A DNA stretch of 22,192 nt from a virus: IMG/VR virus record IMGVR_UViG_3300030012_000385, positions 1-22,192 of that record, one strand, 5' to 3'. Below, one piece after another: positions 1 to 7,441 of this stretch. The position numbers and the translations under genes were made by a program. Each line of letters starts with the position of its first letter. Position 1 is the first letter of the stretch. The notes under the pieces are model-generated. The model saw only the letters and a program-made list of their open reading frames with translations. It was not told the DNA's origin and did no database searches.

Positions 1-17
1 ATGTACATATTTACGCT

Positions 18-245
18 CTATACTTTTTGCCCCCCCCCCATAACATCTACATAATCTTTGGTTATGATCTCTAATTCTTCTTGTAAATCTGCTAGTTGTT
101 TCTTTAATAGTAACTCATTTATTTCTACACCTTGTAGTTCTTTTTGCATTGTATTAATTAAAGATTGTTGTATTTTAATTAATTCTTCTTGCTTGTCTAT
201 TATTTGCTTTGCCTCATCAAACAAGTCTAATAATTCGTTTGTCAT
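18..245 (-). CDS. Small coiled-coil protein, unknown function
   Basis: A 75-residue protein of unknown function. Residues 1-65 are rich in Leu, Ile, Glu, Gln and Lys in a heptad-like pattern and should form one long coiled coil. Its ATG overlaps the stop of the DUF3310-like gene as ATGA, so it is probably translationally coupled to it. The last codons contain a run of ten G (plus-strand C10 at 30-39), which gives the tail MGGGQKV. One G more would open the frame to the window edge and one less would give a slightly different short tail, so the C-terminus is uncertain. It is the last gene of the early operon visible here. Confidence 0.7.
   Translation of the reverse strand: MTNELLDLFDEAKQIIDKQEELIKIQQSLINTMQKELQGVEINELLLKKQLADLQEELEIITKDYVDVMGGGQKV
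30..39. repeat. Homopolymer tract of ten C/G
   Basis: Ten consecutive C on the plus strand (ten G in the coding strand) in an otherwise very AT-rich genome, at the 3' end of the 75-residue gene. Tracts of this length are prone to polymerase slippage and to sequencing error. The count decides the reading frame of the gene's last codons. Confidence 0.9.
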
Positions 246-529
246 TGTTCTCTGTTGTTTAGTTTATCTAGTTCAAAGTTTAAATGGTTTATAGCCTTCT
301 GTATGCAATCGTAGGGACTGTCGTGCTTGTAATTACTTCTTAAAAGATATGTTACTGCTGTGCCTACATTATAACTTAAATCCCAGTCCTCAACTACTTT
401 CCTTGCCTCATATCCATAAGTATTGCCAATGTAATAGTTTGGTATAGGATTACTATTTAAGTCTTGTATAACTTCTTTAGCTTCATCTATGTTTCTTGTA
501 AAGTCGTAGTAGTATTTACTCTTTGCCAT
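242..529 (-). CDS. DUF3310-like phage protein
   Basis: A 95-residue protein. Residues about 40-88 fit the DUF3310 pattern common in phages: a YEA start, a V-E-D-W element, an N-x-G-x-A-V-x-Y-L-x-R core and a final helix with K-A-I-N-H-L. DUF3310 proteins are small and helical and are often annotated as SaV-like or nucleotide-kinase-like, without a settled function. It overlaps the HNH gene by 14 bases upstream and the coiled-coil gene by 4 downstream, so it belongs to the same transcript. The family assignment comes from remembered motif shape and not from a search. Confidence 0.65.
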   Translation of the reverse strand: MAKSKYYYDFTRNIDEAKEVIQDLNSNPIPNYYIGNTYGYEARKVVEDWDLSYNVGTAVTYLLRSNYKHDSPYDCIQKAINHLNFELDKLNNREQ

Positions 530-857
530 TTCTTTTACGTTTTGCTTTTGCCCATGCTGTCTTTTGATTGTGATGTGGTAAACATAAAGTCATCAGGTTA
601 TTTTGGTTAAGTCTATCTCCACCATCTTTGATTTCAATAATGTGATCTATTACTATCTTATCTTTATAATTTACTTTGCCTTCTTCACTGCACCACCTAC
701 AATGTGGTTCTCGTTCAATATGCCACTTTCTGAGATTCCTCCAAGCTCTGCTATTATAAAAGTCATAGTTTTCGCTCTTATGCTTTTCAGTAAAGCCAGT
801 AGTCTTTTTACTACTTGCAATCCACTTCTTTTTCTTTCCCTTTGGTAAACTTGGCAT
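516..857 (-). CDS. HNH endonuclease
   Basis: A 113-residue phage-type HNH nuclease. A Lys-rich N-terminus leads into FYNSRAWRNLR (residues 33-43), typical of these proteins. The zinc-binding pair C53-x2-C56 follows, then D71-H72 of the first catalytic strand, N86/N87, C92 and H95-H96. In many siphoviruses such a protein lies next to the terminase genes and supports DNA packaging with the large terminase. Here it lies near the left edge while the terminase is at the right edge, which would bring them close on a circular map. Its start overlaps the previous stop as TAATG. A stand-alone homing nuclease is less likely, because the gene is seamlessly integrated in the operon. Confidence 0.88.
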   Translation of the reverse strand: MPSLPKGKKKKWIASSKKTTGFTEKHKSENYDFYNSRAWRNLRKWHIEREPHCRWCSEEGKVNYKDKIVIDHIIEIKDGGDRLNQNNLMTLCLPHHNQKTAWAKAKRKRNGKE

Positions 858-1054
858 TAATTTAAAAATTCTAAATCGTTATCATCATATTCTGGCAGCT
901 TGTACTCTATTGTTATTATTGGTGGTATTCCATTATTGTTAAGCCAATCATCTAGGTTGTCAATTAAAGTATCTACTGCTCTATCTTTTGCATCGTCTAA
1001 TAGTTCTGTGTCATCTAATTTTATCTCTATGCTAACACTTGCGATAATCTTCAT
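857..1054 (-). CDS. Small acidic protein, unknown function
   Basis: A 65-residue, strongly acidic protein that I do not recognise. It starts with a beta-like stretch (MKIIASVSIEIKL), has a central Asp-rich helix (residues 14-40) and ends with the acidic segment PEYDDNDLEFLN. No membrane segment or cysteine is visible. Start and stop both overlap neighbouring genes by one base (TAATG), which indicates translational coupling. Small acidic phage proteins can be DNA mimics or inhibitors of host proteins, but nothing here proves that. Confidence 0.7.
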   Translation of the reverse strand: MKIIASVSIEIKLDDTELLDDAKDRAVDTLIDNLDDWLNNNGIPPIITIEYKLPEYDDNDLEFLN

Positions 1055-1275
1055 TATATATACTTTTTATAATCCTTAACATCTAAATATGTTTTTATAA
1101 AATATCTATCTGCATTCTTTTGTATCTTTTCTTGTTCAACTCTATAATCCTCTCTATATCCAAACATCAATTGAAATCCTATGTCTGATGTTATCTTTTT
1201 TGGCAATACTAACTCTAGTCCGTTCTCCGTTCTTTTATATATCTCTTGGTGTCTGGTTGCCCTATTAGACTTCAA
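1054..1275 (-). CDS. Small protein, unknown function
   Basis: A 73-residue protein of unknown function with many charged and aromatic residues, including FGYREDYRVEQEK in the middle and YLDVKDYKKYI at the end. No recognisable motif, signal peptide or membrane span is seen. It overlaps the upstream 124-residue gene by 11 bases and its stop overlaps the next start by one base, so it is embedded in the operon. Being a real gene is supported by this tiling and by the absence of a better frame. Confidence 0.65.
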   Translation of the reverse strand: MKSNRATRHQEIYKRTENGLELVLPKKITSDIGFQLMFGYREDYRVEQEKIQKNADRYFIKTYLDVKDYKKYI

Positions 1276-1639
1276 GAGTTGATTTATATTTATTTATAAT
1301 GCGCTCCATCTGTGATTCATAAAACACTGGGAAATCTTTATAACCTCTAGGCTGTCCTTCTTGCTCCCATACTCTATATAATACAGCTCTTAATCTTTGA
1401 GATGCTGTTTTTGTCTTACCTACCTCAAAGTCTGTTGTAAACTTCTCTACTTCCTCTTGCTCTGCTTTGCTTATATCATCAGAACTTATTAAAACCATTC
1501 CAGGACATTTACGTAAGTTAAATATTCTCATCATTGTTTCATCTGGTAGCTCTTGAGTATGTATGTTTATACTAAGAGTTCCATCTGCTAGAGTACTTAC
1601 CTTATTTACTCCTCCTTCAAATATTACTGTTTTCTTCAT
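1265..1639 (-). CDS. Conserved-looking phage protein, unknown function
   Basis: A 124-residue protein. The N-terminal half looks like beta strands (VIFEGGVNKVS, LSINIHTQELP) and the C-terminal half is helical, with S-Q-R-L-R-A-V-L-Y-R-V-W-E-Q followed by Y-x-S-Q-M-E-R-I-I-N-K-Y-K. From memory the C-terminal pattern (an R-A-V-L-x-x-L/V-W helix, then an F-Y-x-x-x-M-E helix) recurs in Bacteroidota phage early regions, next to recombination and replication genes, without an assigned function. The ATG overlaps the end of the upstream 39-codon gene by 23 bases, and the gene overlaps its downstream neighbour by 11. Confidence 0.7.
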   Translation of the reverse strand: MKKTVIFEGGVNKVSTLADGTLSINIHTQELPDETMMRIFNLRKCPGMVLISSDDISKAEQEEVEKFTTDFEVGKTKTASQRLRAVLYRVWEQEGQPRGYKDFPVFYESQMERIINKYKSTLEV

Positions 1640-1736
1640 CTTTGTAAATATATAAAATAGATTCTATTATCCAATCTTCAGGGTTTAAAGTTTTAAACAA
1701 CCGATTGTTAATCCAGCTCTGTAATCTTTTATTCAT
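1617..1736 (-). CDS. 39-residue micro-protein
   Basis: A short gene that fills the apparent gap between the PP-loop enzyme and the 124-residue gene. It starts with ATG at 1736, overlapping the PP-loop stop as ATGA, and ends with TGA at 1617, overlapping the next gene by 23 bases. The product begins MNKRLQSWINNRLF, has LNPEDWIIESILYIY in the middle and ends DEENSNI. It would form an amphipathic helix pair with several Trp, Tyr and Ile. No function can be assigned. Reality is supported by the exact ATGA coupling, as at other junctions in this operon. Confidence 0.55.
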   Translation of the reverse strand: MNKRLQSWINNRLFKTLNPEDWIIESILYIYKDEENSNI

Positions 1737-2599
1737 AAGCCACAATACCCGCTATCACATTCATTAAAATCATCAAAAGATAATTCTATTTGTGGTTTAT
1801 AATTCATAATATCTTTATACAATTCTTTTTTACTTTTCCAATATTTACTATCATTTTCTTGTTTAGCAAACCATTCCATTTTGTTTTTATGTTCTTGTGC
1901 CATTTTATTTAAAAACATTGGATTTCTATGAAAACAGCCAACGCAATTATTATAATACCCTTTTTGAAATCTTACATTTTTATTGTTTTTCCAATATTTT
2001 TCTATATCTATAGATTTTATAATATTATCTATAAGAGGATAGCTTAACTTTCTCCATTTTTTAGTTTGCCATTTATTTCTTCCATTAGAACTTTTACCTA
2101 CTATGACCTTGTCATATTGAAAACCATCAATCAGTCTTTCATCTATTCTTGCTTTTCTTCTTTCTTCCCCATATCTAAAACCTATTCTCATATCTATTGG
2201 TTCATCAAAGTTATTATTCCACCAATTTAAGATTGGTTTAAATTTCATATGATGCGTGCATTCTCTATGCATAACATTAGGTAAATGTCTACCTTTTAAT
2301 TCTTTTATTAAAATATCATCAAATGTAGGTGATTTTATCCAAGTTATTTCTTGACCTATATATTGCTCAAGGTCTAACATTATATTAATTATATTGTCTT
2401 GCTCTAAAGTTCCAATAAATTCATCATCAATTTTATCAGAAACAATTTGTCTTATTTTTTTGTCTGGATAAATACAATTTTTATCTGTAGTTCTAACTAA
2501 TGCAAATATATTATAATCGGCTTTATAATTAGCAGCAATATAACTAGAGGATTTGCCTCCACTTAAACTATTTACTGTTATAAGTTTTTTAGTTTCCAT
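1733..2599 (-). CDS. PP-loop ATPase, PAPS reductase-like
   Basis: A 288-residue member of the adenine nucleotide alpha-hydrolase (PP-loop) superfamily, closest in shape to phage proteins annotated as phosphoadenosine phosphosulfate reductase-like. The PP-loop SGGKSS is at residues 13-18. Further hallmarks are an R-I-G-F-R-x-G-E segment near 138-145, YPLID at 187-191 and NNCVGCFHR at 217-225. Cysteines at 42, 114, 219, 222, 281 and 286 could form a metal or Fe-S site together with the CDSGYC tail. The family activates substrates with ATP for sulfur transfer or reduction, and DndC, which acts in DNA phosphorothioation, is a distant relative. The substrate here is unknown. It lies between the NinG-like gene and micro-genes in the early operon. 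Confidence 0.82.
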   Translation of the reverse strand: METKKLITVNSLSGGKSSSYIAANYKADYNIFALVRTTDKNCIYPDKKIRQIVSDKIDDEFIGTLEQDNIINIMLDLEQYIGQEITWIKSPTFDDILIKELKGRHLPNVMHRECTHHMKFKPILNWWNNNFDEPIDMRIGFRYGEERRKARIDERLIDGFQYDKVIVGKSSNGRNKWQTKKWRKLSYPLIDNIIKSIDIEKYWKNNKNVRFQKGYYNNCVGCFHRNPMFLNKMAQEHKNKMEWFAKQENDSKYWKSKKELYKDIMNYKPQIELSFDDFNECDSGYCGL

Positions 2600-2688
2600 T
2601 CTTTAAATTTTAAAGGTTTTTGTTTTAGTTGTATTTTTACTGCATAGTAATATTTAGCATATTCCATTACTTCCTCTTCAGTTATCAT
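2578..2688 (-). CDS. 36-residue micro-protein
   Basis: A small gene between the NinG-like and PP-loop genes. Its ATG at 2688 overlaps the NinG-like TGA as ATGA, and its TAA at 2578 lies 22 bases inside the PP-loop gene. The product is charged and aromatic (MITEEEVMEYAKYYY at the start, KFKEWKLKNL at the end) and probably one or two helices. Tiny proteins ending in a similar F-x-E-W motif are common fillers in Bacteroidota phage early operons, from memory. The function is unknown. Confidence 0.55.
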   Translation of the reverse strand: MITEEEVMEYAKYYYAVKIQLKQKPLKFKEWKLKNL

Positions 2689-3077
2689 AATTCTTTTATC
2701 TTTTGTTTATAGCTTTCGATTGCTTCTTCATAATCAGATCTTGTTAATTTTACTACTATGTGCATTCTACTTTCTAAATCATCAACTGTACCTTTACCCC
2801 ATTTATTTTCTACTCCTCTAGCTGCTTTTATTTGGTTTCCGTTCAAAAAAGTATTACAATAACTACACTGGCTGTTAACATTTTTTTCATCGTATCTTAT
2901 GCTAAGGTAACGTCTAGAAAATAGATGACCAGCGTGAATATTACCACCAAAAGCTGGATATTCTTTACCACAACTAATACACTTGCAATTGCCTTTATAA
3001 TCGCTATCACGCTTTCTGATGTACTCGCTAAATACTTTATCTAGCTTTTTTTTTAGTTTACTTATTGTTGTTGGCAT
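2685..3077 (-). CDS. ninG: NinG-like recombination nuclease
   Basis: A 130-residue protein matching the lambda NinG (Rap) pattern, a structure-specific nuclease that acts on Holliday junctions and branched DNA in phage recombination. Visible features are the N-terminal helix with DKVFSEYIRKRD, the zinc knuckle C33-x2-C36 (CISCGK), H48-A-G-H51 followed by LFSRR, then RYDEKNVNSQ and the second pair C71-x2-C74 before N75. The fold is HNH-like. It overlaps the upstream replication-associated gene by 20 bases. Position just after the replication genes matches lambdoid layout. A general HNH nuclease is the alternative reading. Confidence 0.82.
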   Translation of the reverse strand: MPTTISKLKKKLDKVFSEYIRKRDSDYKGNCKCISCGKEYPAFGGNIHAGHLFSRRYLSIRYDEKNVNSQCSYCNTFLNGNQIKAARGVENKWGKGTVDDLESRMHIVVKLTRSDYEEAIESYKQKIKEL

Positions 3078-3477
3078 TGCCTATCTTCTTTATCTCTCTT
3101 TTATCTATTGCCTTACTAAATGATTCAACACGCTTTTTATAAATTTCGTATTCTTCTATTTGATTTGTTTGTCTTTTTAATGCTTTTGATTTTTTGTAAT
3201 CTCTCAATGCTTGACTCCACGTAGGTACATTAACAAAGTGTGGTCCATCATTTTCTCTTATGTGTTTATTTAAAGCAAATCTAACTTCTTCTAATTCCAT
3301 AGAACCATAGTTATTAGCTAAGTCATTACAAAATAAATTAGTCATCTGCACTACTATCTCAGCTTCTGGAGCTTGTCCTAGCTGTACATAAAGAGTTGAA
3401 ATAACGTCATAACATTGTCTTTTGAGTTCTTTGATGTTGTTTGCGTATAGATACCAAACTTGATTTTTTTTAATCAT
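3058..3477 (-). CDS. Replication-associated phage protein
   Basis: A 139-residue, mostly helical protein directly after the replication initiator and overlapping it by 8 bases. It starts KKNQVWYLYANNIKELKRQC, has an acidic helical middle with MELEEVRFALNKHIRE, then PTWSQALRDYKK and a basic C-terminal tail. There is no Walker A motif, so it is not an ATPase helicase loader of the DnaC kind. Similar proteins sit at this place in Bacteroidota phages as I recall, so a helper role such as a lambda P-like loader or adaptor is possible. That role is inferred from position only. Confidence 0.65.
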   Translation of the reverse strand: MIKKNQVWYLYANNIKELKRQCYDVISTLYVQLGQAPEAEIVVQMTNLFCNDLANNYGSMELEEVRFALNKHIRENDGPHFVNVPTWSQALRDYKKSKALKRQTNQIEEYEIYKKRVESFSKAIDKREIKKIGNANNNK

Positions 3478-4144
3478 TATATTCTTTATTTATCATTTCT
3501 AGTCCTTTGTGATAGTTGCTAAGTATCTTTTGAACTTTAGTTTGTTTTTCTGTTTTAAGCTCAAACAATCCCTTCCATCCGTTTTCGATAGACTGCTGGA
3601 TTATTTTAGCTTGGTTTTCTTTGTTGTTGTTGGAGATTCTTAGTAGCTTGGATATGGCAGCAGATTCACCTAAAGGTTTGTAGGTGGTTCTAAATTGTTC
3701 TTTTCTAAATGCTTTCCACAATTCCCAAGCGTCTAAATTTAATTCAAAAGGATAATCCCTTTCTGTTTTAGTATTATTAGTATTTAGTTTTATATTAGTA
3801 TTTAGTAGCGGTTGATTTTCTACATCTAACTTTTCTATTTCTTGAAAATCGAAATGTGGCTTTTCAAAAACTATATAATCCCAGCTTACTATCTTACCTT
3901 TATCTCTAATCTGTTTTCGTTTCATATAGCCATTAGATGTAAGTTCCTTAAAGGCTGAGTATATAGCAGACTTACCATCTGTGCTCCATTTTTCAACTTC
4001 TTCGACATATAGTTTCCAATCATTAGGTAAAGCCAAGAGGTGACATAGTAACCCCTTAGCTTTTAACGATAAGTTTTTATTAAATATAAACTCATTATTT
4101 ATAGTAGTAAAGTTCTTAGATTTCTCTACTCTAATTCGCTTCAT
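3470..4144 (-). CDS. Winged-helix replication initiator (phage O-like)
   Basis: A 224-residue protein whose N-terminal 90 residues look like the helix-turn-helix domain of phage replisome organisers: FTTINNEFIFNKNLSLKAKG, then LLALPNDWKLYVEEVEKW, GKSAIYSAFKELTSNGYMKR and a basic wing. Residues about 100-125 form an Asn/Thr-rich linker (LNTNIKLNTNN), and the rest is a helical C-terminal domain with AWELWKAFRKEQF. The layout resembles lambda O, with a DNA-binding head, a flexible linker and a partner-binding tail. The linker DNA carries direct repeats that could be initiator sites. It overlaps the HTH gene by 14 bases and the next gene by 8. Confidence 0.72.
   Translation of the reverse strand: MKRIRVEKSKNFTTINNEFIFNKNLSLKAKGLLCHLLALPNDWKLYVEEVEKWSTDGKSAIYSAFKELTSNGYMKRKQIRDKGKIVSWDYIVFEKPHFDFQEIEKLDVENQPLLNTNIKLNTNNTKTERDYPFELNLDAWELWKAFRKEQFRTTYKPLGESAAISKLLRISNNNKENQAKIIQQSIENGWKGLFELKTEKQTKVQKILSNYHKGLEMINKEYND
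3768..3806. repeat. Iteron-like direct repeats inside the initiator gene
   Basis: The heptamer TTAGTAT occurs at 3768-3774, 3777-3783 and 3795-3801, at spacings of 9 and 18 bases. The last two copies extend to an identical 14-mer (TATTAGTATTTAGT, at 3775-3788 and 3793-3806). They lie in the part of the winged-helix initiator gene that encodes the Asn/Thr linker, which is where lambda O carries its origin iterons. The two 14-mers use the same synonymous codons. The repeats also encode the peptide repeat LNTN, so protein-level duplication is a simpler alternative. Confidence 0.5.
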
Positions 4145-4367
4145 TTAATGTGTATTTAGAGAATGAAACCTTTTCATTGAATCTATTCCTACTAGATACC
4201 AGCTCAGACTTTATATCATAGCCTTCGTCTTTCAATTCGCATATCCTTGACGTTAGTCTCATAATTGCATAATCATTAAAAGCATCTAATGCAGTTATTG
4301 GTCCAATCTGTTTAAGATGTCTAAGTACTTTGTCTTTCTGTGATAATTTTCTTTTCATTGTTTTCAT
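4131..4367 (-). CDS. Small helix-turn-helix protein
   Basis: A 78-residue protein with a winged-helix pattern seen in many phages: LSQKDKVLRHLKQIGPITALDAFNDY, then IMRLTSRICELKDEGYDI as the recognition helix, and a C-terminal beta wing ending KVSFSKYTL. These proteins are usually annotated as HTH-domain proteins of unknown role and are probably DNA binding. The start is ATG at 4367; a second ATG three codons later is possible. It sits between the DnaA-like gene and the winged-helix initiator and overlaps the latter by 14 bases, which suits a replication or regulatory role. Confidence 0.7.
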   Translation of the reverse strand: MKTMKRKLSQKDKVLRHLKQIGPITALDAFNDYAIMRLTSRICELKDEGYDIKSELVSSRNRFNEKVSFSKYTLNEAN

Positions 4368-4380
4368 TTATTGGTTAATA

Positions 4381-4779
4381 TTAAATTCCTTGTCCGTGAT
4401 TTTCTCTAAGTTTTTGTTTTAAATAATTATTATATCGTTGTTTTTTTATGTTGACTATCTCTCTTATTAACTCTTTTGGTTCAACATAGTCAATCTGTAA
4501 CTTAAATACCTCTAATATATCATTGTATTTATTATGGTAATAATCATCATAAGCCATCAAGTCTTTATGTTTTTTGTAATGGTGTATTATACTAGCGTGA
4601 TTTAAATTAAACTCTTTTGCTATCTTAGTCCAGCTTAGTTCAAGTATATCCCTACAAATTACAAAAGCCATTCTTCTATTATCCACTATATGTCTTTTTC
4701 TGCTTTTAGATAACAGTTCTTTTTCTGACATCTTAGTAACATAACTAACAACTTTTTTTACTCTGTCTATTTTATCCAT
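4381..4779 (-). CDS. Free-standing DnaA domain IV-like protein
   Basis: A 132-residue protein whose residues about 5-76 match the C-terminal DNA-binding domain of bacterial DnaA: SKSRKRHIVDNRRMAFVICRD, then LSWTKIAKEF, and LNHASIIHHYKKHKDL in the place of the DnaA signature D-H-T-T-V-x-H-A. There is no AAA+ domain. Residues 77-132 form a charged helical extension ending in a basic Lys/Arg/Asn tail. It may bind DnaA-box-like sites to recruit or compete with host DnaA, or act as a regulator. It overlaps the upstream gene by 8 bases and is followed by the HTH and initiator genes. Confidence 0.75.
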   Translation of the reverse strand: MDKIDRVKKVVSYVTKMSEKELLSKSRKRHIVDNRRMAFVICRDILELSWTKIAKEFNLNHASIIHHYKKHKDLMAYDDYYHNKYNDILEVFKLQIDYVEPKELIREIVNIKKQRYNNYLKQKLRENHGQGI

Positions 4780-6385: not shown

Positions 6386-7441
6386 TTAAAAAATATGAGT
6401 TAGGTGTGCTATTTGTCCAAATTCGTTATGAATAAATCCTTCAACTGCTTTAATACTACCAGTATATCCCTTTTGATAATGCCAAGAATCAGTACCACTA
6501 GGTGAACGTAGAAACTCTACAGTTACTCCTACGTTATCAAAACTAGTCAAAAACTTATAGCGTTGTTTGTGGTGTAAATGATGTAAATACCAATATCTAT
6601 ATTTAGTATCTGCCCACATCTTAGGCTTTTCTTGTGCCATATGTAAAGGTAAATTAGGCAATTTAGCACCATCTCCGTGAGTCAATCCTATTAAACTGTT
6701 TTTGTATTTATAATATTTTCTGTGCATTGGTTCAGCATCTACGCTTACTGCTTCTGTATTACGATACCAAGACTTGAGAGCGTGTGCTAAATGAAAGCCA
6801 CTCATATAATCGTGATTACTCATAGAGTGTACGCAATCTACTGGAGCTAACTGCATTAACATCTCTACAACCTCAACGTAAAGTTCTAAAGCCTCTGTAA
6901 AGTGTTTATGCCATTTACCATCTACATCTTGTGCAGTTCCTTTTGTAGTTGTTTTATGAACATTGTCTATGTGTAGTATATCATTACCTATACAAAACAA
7001 TATACGTTCTATTGGATAGCCTTCTGCGTTTCTTAGAATACCCTTGACTCCATCTCTTACTCTATTCTTAGCTATGTCTATATTATATTCGTTTCCAGTT
7101 TCACTAGCATCGGCATACTTACCAATGTGAACGTCTGCTGGATTTATTATAAGTAAATGACCATCTTGTCTTATAGGATAATCAATAGATGGATATTTAG
7201 GAGAGTATTGTGAGATAAGCTCCTCTATAGATTGTAAGAAGTCATCTTTAGTATATTCATTTGGTTTAGCAAATATTGAGAACTTCTGACTCTTATACCA
7301 ATAATGAGAAACAGATCCGACATCTATACCAACTTGATTACATTCTTCAGCTAATAGGTTTTGTCTTTTTTTGTCGTTTCTATATTCGTCTACTAATTTC
7401 CATTCATCTTCTTTAAGTCTATACCTCTTAAAGTCTTTCAT
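6386..7441 (-). CDS. Calcineurin-like metallophosphoesterase
   Basis: A 351-residue protein with the five blocks of the calcineurin-like phosphoesterase fold: D103-V-H105, G152-N-D154, S-N209-H210-D211 (Ser where Gly is usual), H255-G-D and H288-L-H290. These bind two metal ions that hydrolyse phosphate esters or nucleic acids. Residues 1-60 are charged and helical and could be a helix-turn-helix extension. Phage homologues are often annotated as metallophosphatase or DNA-repair exonuclease. The start overlaps the holin candidate's stop as ATGA, so it is translated from the late or lysis transcript and ends it. The substrate is unknown; a nuclease, a nucleotide hydrolase or a protein phosphatase are all possible. 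Confidence 0.85.
   Translation of the reverse strand: MKDFKRYRLKEDEWKLVDEYRNDKKRQNLLAEECNQVGIDVGSVSHYWYKSQKFSIFAKPNEYTKDDFLQSIEELISQYSPKYPSIDYPIRQDGHLLIINPADVHIGKYADASETGNEYNIDIAKNRVRDGVKGILRNAEGYPIERILFCIGNDILHIDNVHKTTTKGTAQDVDGKWHKHFTEALELYVEVVEMLMQLAPVDCVHSMSNHDYMSGFHLAHALKSWYRNTEAVSVDAEPMHRKYYKYKNSLIGLTHGDGAKLPNLPLHMAQEKPKMWADTKYRYWYLHHLHHKQRYKFLTSFDNVGVTVEFLRSPSGTDSWHYQKGYTGSIKAVEGFIHNEFGQIAHLTHIF

Follow-up and report, generated by a model that had tools for sequence, protein, structure and literature searches.

Analysis of a window of 22,192 nucleotides (bases 1-22192 of a 23,899-base IMG/VR virus record, the source virus probably having a marine Bacteroidota host) revealed a gene for a solitary PP-loop protein, which is likely an ATP-dependent sulfurtransferase similar to SspD and DndC and probably of the Fe-S type. 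The complete reading, namely a stand-alone enzyme of the SspD/DndC type that would be fed by a host desulfurase and would use phage nucleic acid as acceptor, is put forward tentatively, with doubt slightly outweighing confidence. For the branch to which the window protein belongs, the sequence evidence points to ATP-dependent sulfur transfer of the DNA phosphorothioation type in a DNA-replication setting, not to sulfur cycling. Annotation has already pointed to phage genes resembling SspD or DndC in prophages of Sinorhizobium and in phage AP-20-A (PMC12429752, PMC13299392), and a paper on a Thermus phage stated that phage homologues of PAPS reductase deserve study (PMC11437467). New here is a case, made at the level of motifs, that a large and mostly marine phage branch would be SspD-like, not CysH, and solitary.

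The gene, its relatives, and its predicted fold

The ORF at positions 1733-2599 (minus strand, ATG start) encodes 288 aa and was annotated as an SspD/DndC-like putative [4Fe-4S] sulfurtransferase with a PP-loop (ATP pyrophosphatase fold). All three segments quoted in the preliminary description, namely SGGKSS, N-C-V-G-C-F-H-R, and CDSGYC, were present in its translation. Relatives were gathered by tblastn and degenerate-pattern scans, resulting in an alignment of 106 distinct homologues drawn from IMG/VR, from isolated phages, and from a small number of bacterial genomes, and the ORF was confirmed as real, far beyond chance, and as part of a large phage family. The IMG/VR relatives revealed 49-62% identity to the window protein. 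Of at least 520 confirmed candidates in the IMG/VR scan, the best 80 were kept, so that the family exceeds the 106 aligned proteins. Identities were 37.5% for gp016 of Cellulophaga phage phi19:3, 28-29% for Nodularia phages, and 25% for Roseobacter phages, and family loci were also found on bacterial contigs of Kordia, Aureispira, Flavilitoribacter, and Pedobacter. Comparison of window positions 1-4400 with phage records at the DNA level resulted in no similarity, and a direct sequence search of the PDB with the window protein gave nothing. NCBIfam yielded no match for the window protein and weak generic models for other members, and the Pfam model PAPS_reduct, present in 2 of 13 members, did not match the window protein either.

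Residues P107, R112, C114, T115, K119, G140, R142, E145, R148, P188, N218, C219, C222, and E248 were conserved in 106/106 members of the alignment. The PP-loop motif LSGGKSS (residues 12-18, positions 2546-2566, minus strand; LSGGKSSS at residues 12-19), the ATP pyrophosphate-binding loop, displayed SGG..S in 102/106 members, and S13-G14-G15..S18 was kept in all 103 of the 106 rows that are ungapped there. The first invariant cysteine, C114 in the segment HRECTHHMK, is held by the signature R112-x-C114-T115-x3-K119 (positions 2243-2266, minus strand), and the second and third by N218-C219-x-x-C222 (positions 1934-1948, minus strand) within NNCVGCFHRN at residues 217-226. As a set for comparison, we used 25 CysH proteins from genomes of the class sampled around Kordia, which were found with the APS-reductase model and whose ORFs were picked by ECGLH. 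The pattern [RK].CT...K occurred in all 106 family members, in 4/4 SspD and 4/4 DndC, and in 0/25 CysH. Less strictly kept were C42 (93/106) and the cysteines of the C-terminal tail NECDSGYCGL (residues 279-288, positions 1736-1765, minus strand), namely C281 (95/106) and C286 (104/106, the other two rows being gapped). The possible metal binding suggested in the preliminary description is supported in the form of a probable metal-centre set of cysteines. Of the three invariant core cysteines, it had caught C219 and C222 but missed C114. Nor is the set unusual, as had been claimed, since C114, C219xxC222, and a C-terminal cysteine are common to SspD and PptA.

An AlphaFold2 model based on 78 sequences reached a pLDDT of 92.1 and a pTM of 0.90 (pLDDT 82.8 with 15 sequences). 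In this model, the PP-loop is located between strand 7-12 and helix 16-24, C114 opens helix 113-130, C219 and C222 lie in a loop preceding helix 227-236, and C286 is part of a flexible tail of low confidence (mean pLDDT of the last block 47). The top PDB match in Foldseek was the APS reductase 2goy with a probability of 1.00, but an E-value of only 2.7e-3. VIA-align placed yeast PAPS reductase 2oq2 (Z 10.7, rmsd 3.5, 177 aligned), 2goy (Z 10.4), the [4Fe-4S] enzyme LarE 8cnz (Z 10.3), NcsA 6scy (Z 9.9), and TtuA 5mkq (Z 9.7) close together, with GMP synthetases level with these (Z 10-11) and FAD synthase also in the matched fold group. In the model, an adenosine-phosphosulfate reductase fold is present (VIA Z 10.4-10.7), but it is common to the whole PP-loop superfamily. 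Structures of DndC and SspD were not among the fold matches; they may lie outside the compared set, so this has no bearing on the fold. Taken as a prediction, the model settles membership in the PP-loop superfamily, not function. The earlier proposal of an ATP-type PP-loop enzyme was borne out by the fold models, and the structure prediction and comparison suggested along with it returned a PP-loop ATP-pyrophosphatase fold, not a structure without an ATP pocket.

Genomic neighbourhood and search for partner subunits

The gene lies among minus-strand genes for DNA metabolism, in accordance with the earlier remark that it sits beside a NinG-like nuclease and outside any metabolic cluster. Its upstream neighbour encodes a NinG-like recombination nuclease (positions 2685-3077; PF05766, E 2.2e-19; phrog_5034, 1.7e-31), and further genes encode a replication-initiation-like protein (3470-4144; phrog_4707, E 3.5e-25; HTH_36, 2.4e-6), a protein of 132 aa that has the DNA-binding C-terminal domain of DnaA but lacks the ATPase part (4381-4779; PF08299, 2.5e-15), and a DNA repair exonuclease (6386-7441; phrog_704), all on the minus strand. 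An HNH endonuclease (516-857) and a 95-aa protein with a weak PHROG match to a nucleotide kinase (242-529; E 2e-5; its cluster occurs at 22 loci) are encoded on the same strand. The exonuclease is followed by genes for structural proteins and by packaging genes, which were recognised by eye, and no sulfur-metabolism gene was recognisable among the proteins examined on the record. A run of C in AT-rich sequence at window positions 31-39, near the record end, is possibly an assembly edge effect.

Neighbour clusters were counted within six genes of the family gene at 106 loci. The most frequent ones were a Toprim primase-helicase (32), NinG (29), and a replication-initiation-like HTH protein (22), followed by C5 cytosine methylases (20 and 8), the DnaA C-terminal protein (19), an SSB-like DUF3127 protein (13), ParB (10), and phage endonuclease I (7). 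As every cluster was confined to about a third of the loci or fewer, the idea of a fixed operon partner was dropped. At the Kordia aestuariivivens locus (L106:4671-6496), inspection by eye placed the family member after TcmP-like (three-Cys-motif partner) and phage Gp37/Gp68 (DUF5131)-like genes. Four loci from Saprospiraceae-type genomes (L104, L105, L108, L109; about 8-16 kb) harbored a short P-loop ATPase near the family gene, which by eye resembles packaging or Zot proteins, and their neighbouring proteins were almost without PHROG matches; a small phage or an integrated element that has not been described before may be present here.

Known phosphorothioation requires SspBCD or DndCDE together with a cysteine desulfurase, which IscS can replace (PMC8092258, PMC12707154). 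SspB (DUF4007) was detected in 0/44 records, i.e., the window record and those of 43 relatives, many of the viral ones being fragments. As a control, the same search was applied to the three genomes with canonical SspD; in 3/3 it recovered SspB, which lies on the contig of SspD at a distance of about 4 kb, and none was found in six genomes with a family member but without canonical SspD. Cysteine desulfurase (PF00266) was likewise found in 0/44 records, compared with 14/14 in the control, and DndE in 0/44, where the control genomes were equally blank. Thus, the window enzyme is solitary in that no phosphorothioation partner was found, though this absence is not proof because many of the viral records are fragments. 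One Saprospiraceae genome (G007:C14:12395-17538; L107) carried a member of the solitary family in addition to a canonical SspD, the latter having SspB at a distance of about 4 kb, so that both branches coexist there.

Proposed sulfur transfer and its alternatives

By analogy with DndC, a PP-loop enzyme with a three-Cys 4Fe-4S centre and an extra Cys dyad that receives sulfur (PMC10853773), we suppose that C114, C219, and C222 would ligate a [4Fe-4S] cluster and leave one of its irons free. A host cysteine desulfurase of the IscS or SufS type might pass sulfur to this cluster or to the C-terminal cysteine, which, by the same analogy, would act as a relay. ATP would then adenylate the acceptor at the PP-loop, and sulfur would take the place of oxygen. 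The least certain step concerns the acceptor, which would be nucleic acid of the phage, with replicating DNA as the likeliest form and a phosphorothioate or thio-base as the product; thiolated phage DNA would resist host nucleases or restriction. Phage DNA is favoured because of the SspD-like signatures together with the DNA-replication setting, but this choice is a guess, and tRNA and nucleotides are live rivals that both fit the chemistry. DNA thiolation, one of the roles raised in the preliminary description, may thus apply, and the signature closest to that of the family is indeed the one of SspD/DndC. Rather doubtful, in turn, is the most far-reaching version, in which an SspD-like enzyme with host sulfur alone, lacking SspB/SspC or DndD/DndE, would sulfurate replicating phage DNA as a one-protein system, so that a large share of viral 'cysH' genes would be DNA-modification genes.

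Among the alternatives, an RNA thiolase is unlikely, though it survives best. Such an enzyme, similar to TtcA or NcsA, would carry out ATP-dependent sulfuration of tRNA and thereby sustain translation or evade anticodon nucleases. In tRNA thiolation, it is normal for an enzyme to work alone on sulfur provided by the host, and the three-Cys [4Fe-4S] PP-loop thiolases NcsA and TtuA fit the fold (Z 9.7-9.9). However, the signature residues follow SspD and DndC, the window contains no tRNA genes, the 288 aa leave no separate RNA-binding domain, and the gene is set among genes for DNA replication and recombination. Somewhat less likely again is an enzyme that would thiolate or otherwise alter small molecules, free (deoxy)nucleotides among them, instead of polymeric DNA. 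The fold shared with GMP synthetase, FAD synthase, and LarE is consistent with such a role, as is a dATP/dGTP diphosphohydrolase gene near one relative (CRP-831), but no dedicated polymerase or kinase partner recurs alongside, and the SspD-like signature also argues against it.

Still more improbable is a counter-defence partner, i.e., a protein that mimics SspD or DndC and thereby poisons the host phosphorothioation complex, or one that borrows host SspBC or DndDE for marking phage DNA. An SspD-like protein without SspB would suit this role, anti-Dnd factors are known in phages (e.g., JSS1_004; PMC12345140), and an anti-defence role has been proposed for a DndC-like gene of a phage (PMC13299392). 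On the other hand, the strict conservation of all catalytic-looking residues argues against a dead mimic, and genuine Ssp and Dnd systems are rather rare for so widespread a gene: in the class sampled around Kordia, SspD at E<=1e-30 was seen in 2/119 genomes and DndC over the cut-off in 6/119.

Equally little credence is given to a true PAPS/APS reductase (CysH) acting as an auxiliary metabolic gene that raises host sulfate assimilation during infection, despite the name of phrog_424 ('phosphoadenosine phosphosulfate reductase'; E 3.4e-19, residues 5-287 of the window protein), the PAPS reductase labels in GenBank entries of relatives, the PAPS/APS reductases as nearest fold, and the counting of viral cysH as a core auxiliary metabolic gene, globally conserved and interpreted as a means by which viruses steer the sulfur cycle (PMC9301287, PMC7785012). 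The recurring neighbours of the family are DNA genes, not sulfur genes. CysH is defined by the loss of the ATP-type PP-loop and by the ECGLH cysteine. In bacterial CysH, C[CY]...K was found in 25/25 proteins and RxGRW in 19/25, compared with 0/106 family members for each; ECGLH also gave 0/106 and 25/25, where the family value alone is informative, the CysH ORFs having been chosen by this motif. Conversely, SGG..S, intact in 102/106 members, was seen in 0/25 CysH. The family does share with CysH the fold, a cysteine at the position of C114, a CxxC, and a cysteine near the C-terminus, but it lacks ECGLH, RxGRW, and the C-C/Y pair and retains an intact ATP PP-loop. Judged by these motifs, the label 'PAPS reductase' is not supported for the family, and filing the window gene and about a hundred relatives as sulfate-metabolism genes is probably wrong. 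The group phrog_424 is a lumped one, elsewhere matched to DndC (PMC13299392), and its name denotes an activity that the motifs of the window branch contradict. If the SspD-like reading is true, counts of viral cysH as an auxiliary metabolic gene would have to be revised, and isolates such as Cellulophaga phage phi19:3 would allow a direct check by mass spectrometry for sulfur in phage DNA.

Comparison with PptA, DndC, and SspD

The PADLOC model for SspD matched 13/13 diverse members scanned (best 2.5e-21), the window protein with E 1e-6 over residues 65-150 only; it also gave weak matches in 7/14 control genomes. The DndC models matched 3-4 of the 13 members. In a first tree, the family joined PptA (87/75), then SspD (86/72), then DndC, apart from CysH, and a constraint grouping family and CysH was marginally rejected (p-AU 0.04). 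A second tree, which included more CysH, again placed the family, PptA, and SspD on one side of a branch (76/85) that was not starred in either tree, and the grouping of family and CysH was not rejected (p 0.21), so that the claim of a tree excluding CysH was dropped. The trees thus agree with an SspD affinity of the family without proving it, nor does the phylogeny settle the order within the superfamily; the argument for this affinity is carried by the motifs.

PptA, the protein of PDB entry 21fy, corresponds to the hypothetical protein QGH73774.1 of Vibrio phage vB_VhaP_VH-5 (MN497414.1, 18758-19510; L144:6908-7660), identical over the 98 aa compared. A search of the PDB with the family profile A2 gave PptA 21fy as the only match, which was not significant (E 0.18); with the deeper profile A4, this match was gone and nothing relevant appeared. 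PptA was the sister group of the family in one tree only, the first. No partner chain of 21fy was found among four neighbouring VH-5 proteins, which were concatenated for this comparison. The literature searched contained nothing relevant on the function of PptA, the meaning of its name, or phage-encoded phosphorothioation, and the name is therefore not used as evidence. Relatives of PptA occur in Pseudoalteromonas, Verrucomicrobia, Nitrincola, and Pseudomonas phages, where they are mostly labelled PAPS reductase. Like the family, PptA is a solitary phage protein of the PP-loop type with C-T-x3-K, NNNCVGC, and a C-terminal C-x3-C, but its PP-loop reads SCGAPS instead of SGGxxS.

SspD and DndC are the ATP pyrophosphatases of phosphorothioation, in which IscS can stand in for SspA or DndA (PMC8092258); SspD belongs to the SspABCD system, which acts on single-strand DNA, and DndC to the DndABCDE system. 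DndC shares with the family the PP-loop, [RK]xCTx3K, and the C-x2-C pair, but with about 440 aa it has a further upstream cysteine and a long C-terminal part. Compared with the three canonical SspD, which carry an insertion before C-x2-C, the family is about 90 aa shorter; its C-terminal C-x4-C replaces C-x2-C-F, the similarity is weak, and SspB is found neither on the window record nor on those of the relatives. What SspD has in common with the family is the PP-loop SGGxxS, R-x-C-T-x3-K, G-x-R-x2-E, C-x2-C-F with the following helix, and a cysteine near the C-terminus, the last of which PptA likewise displays.
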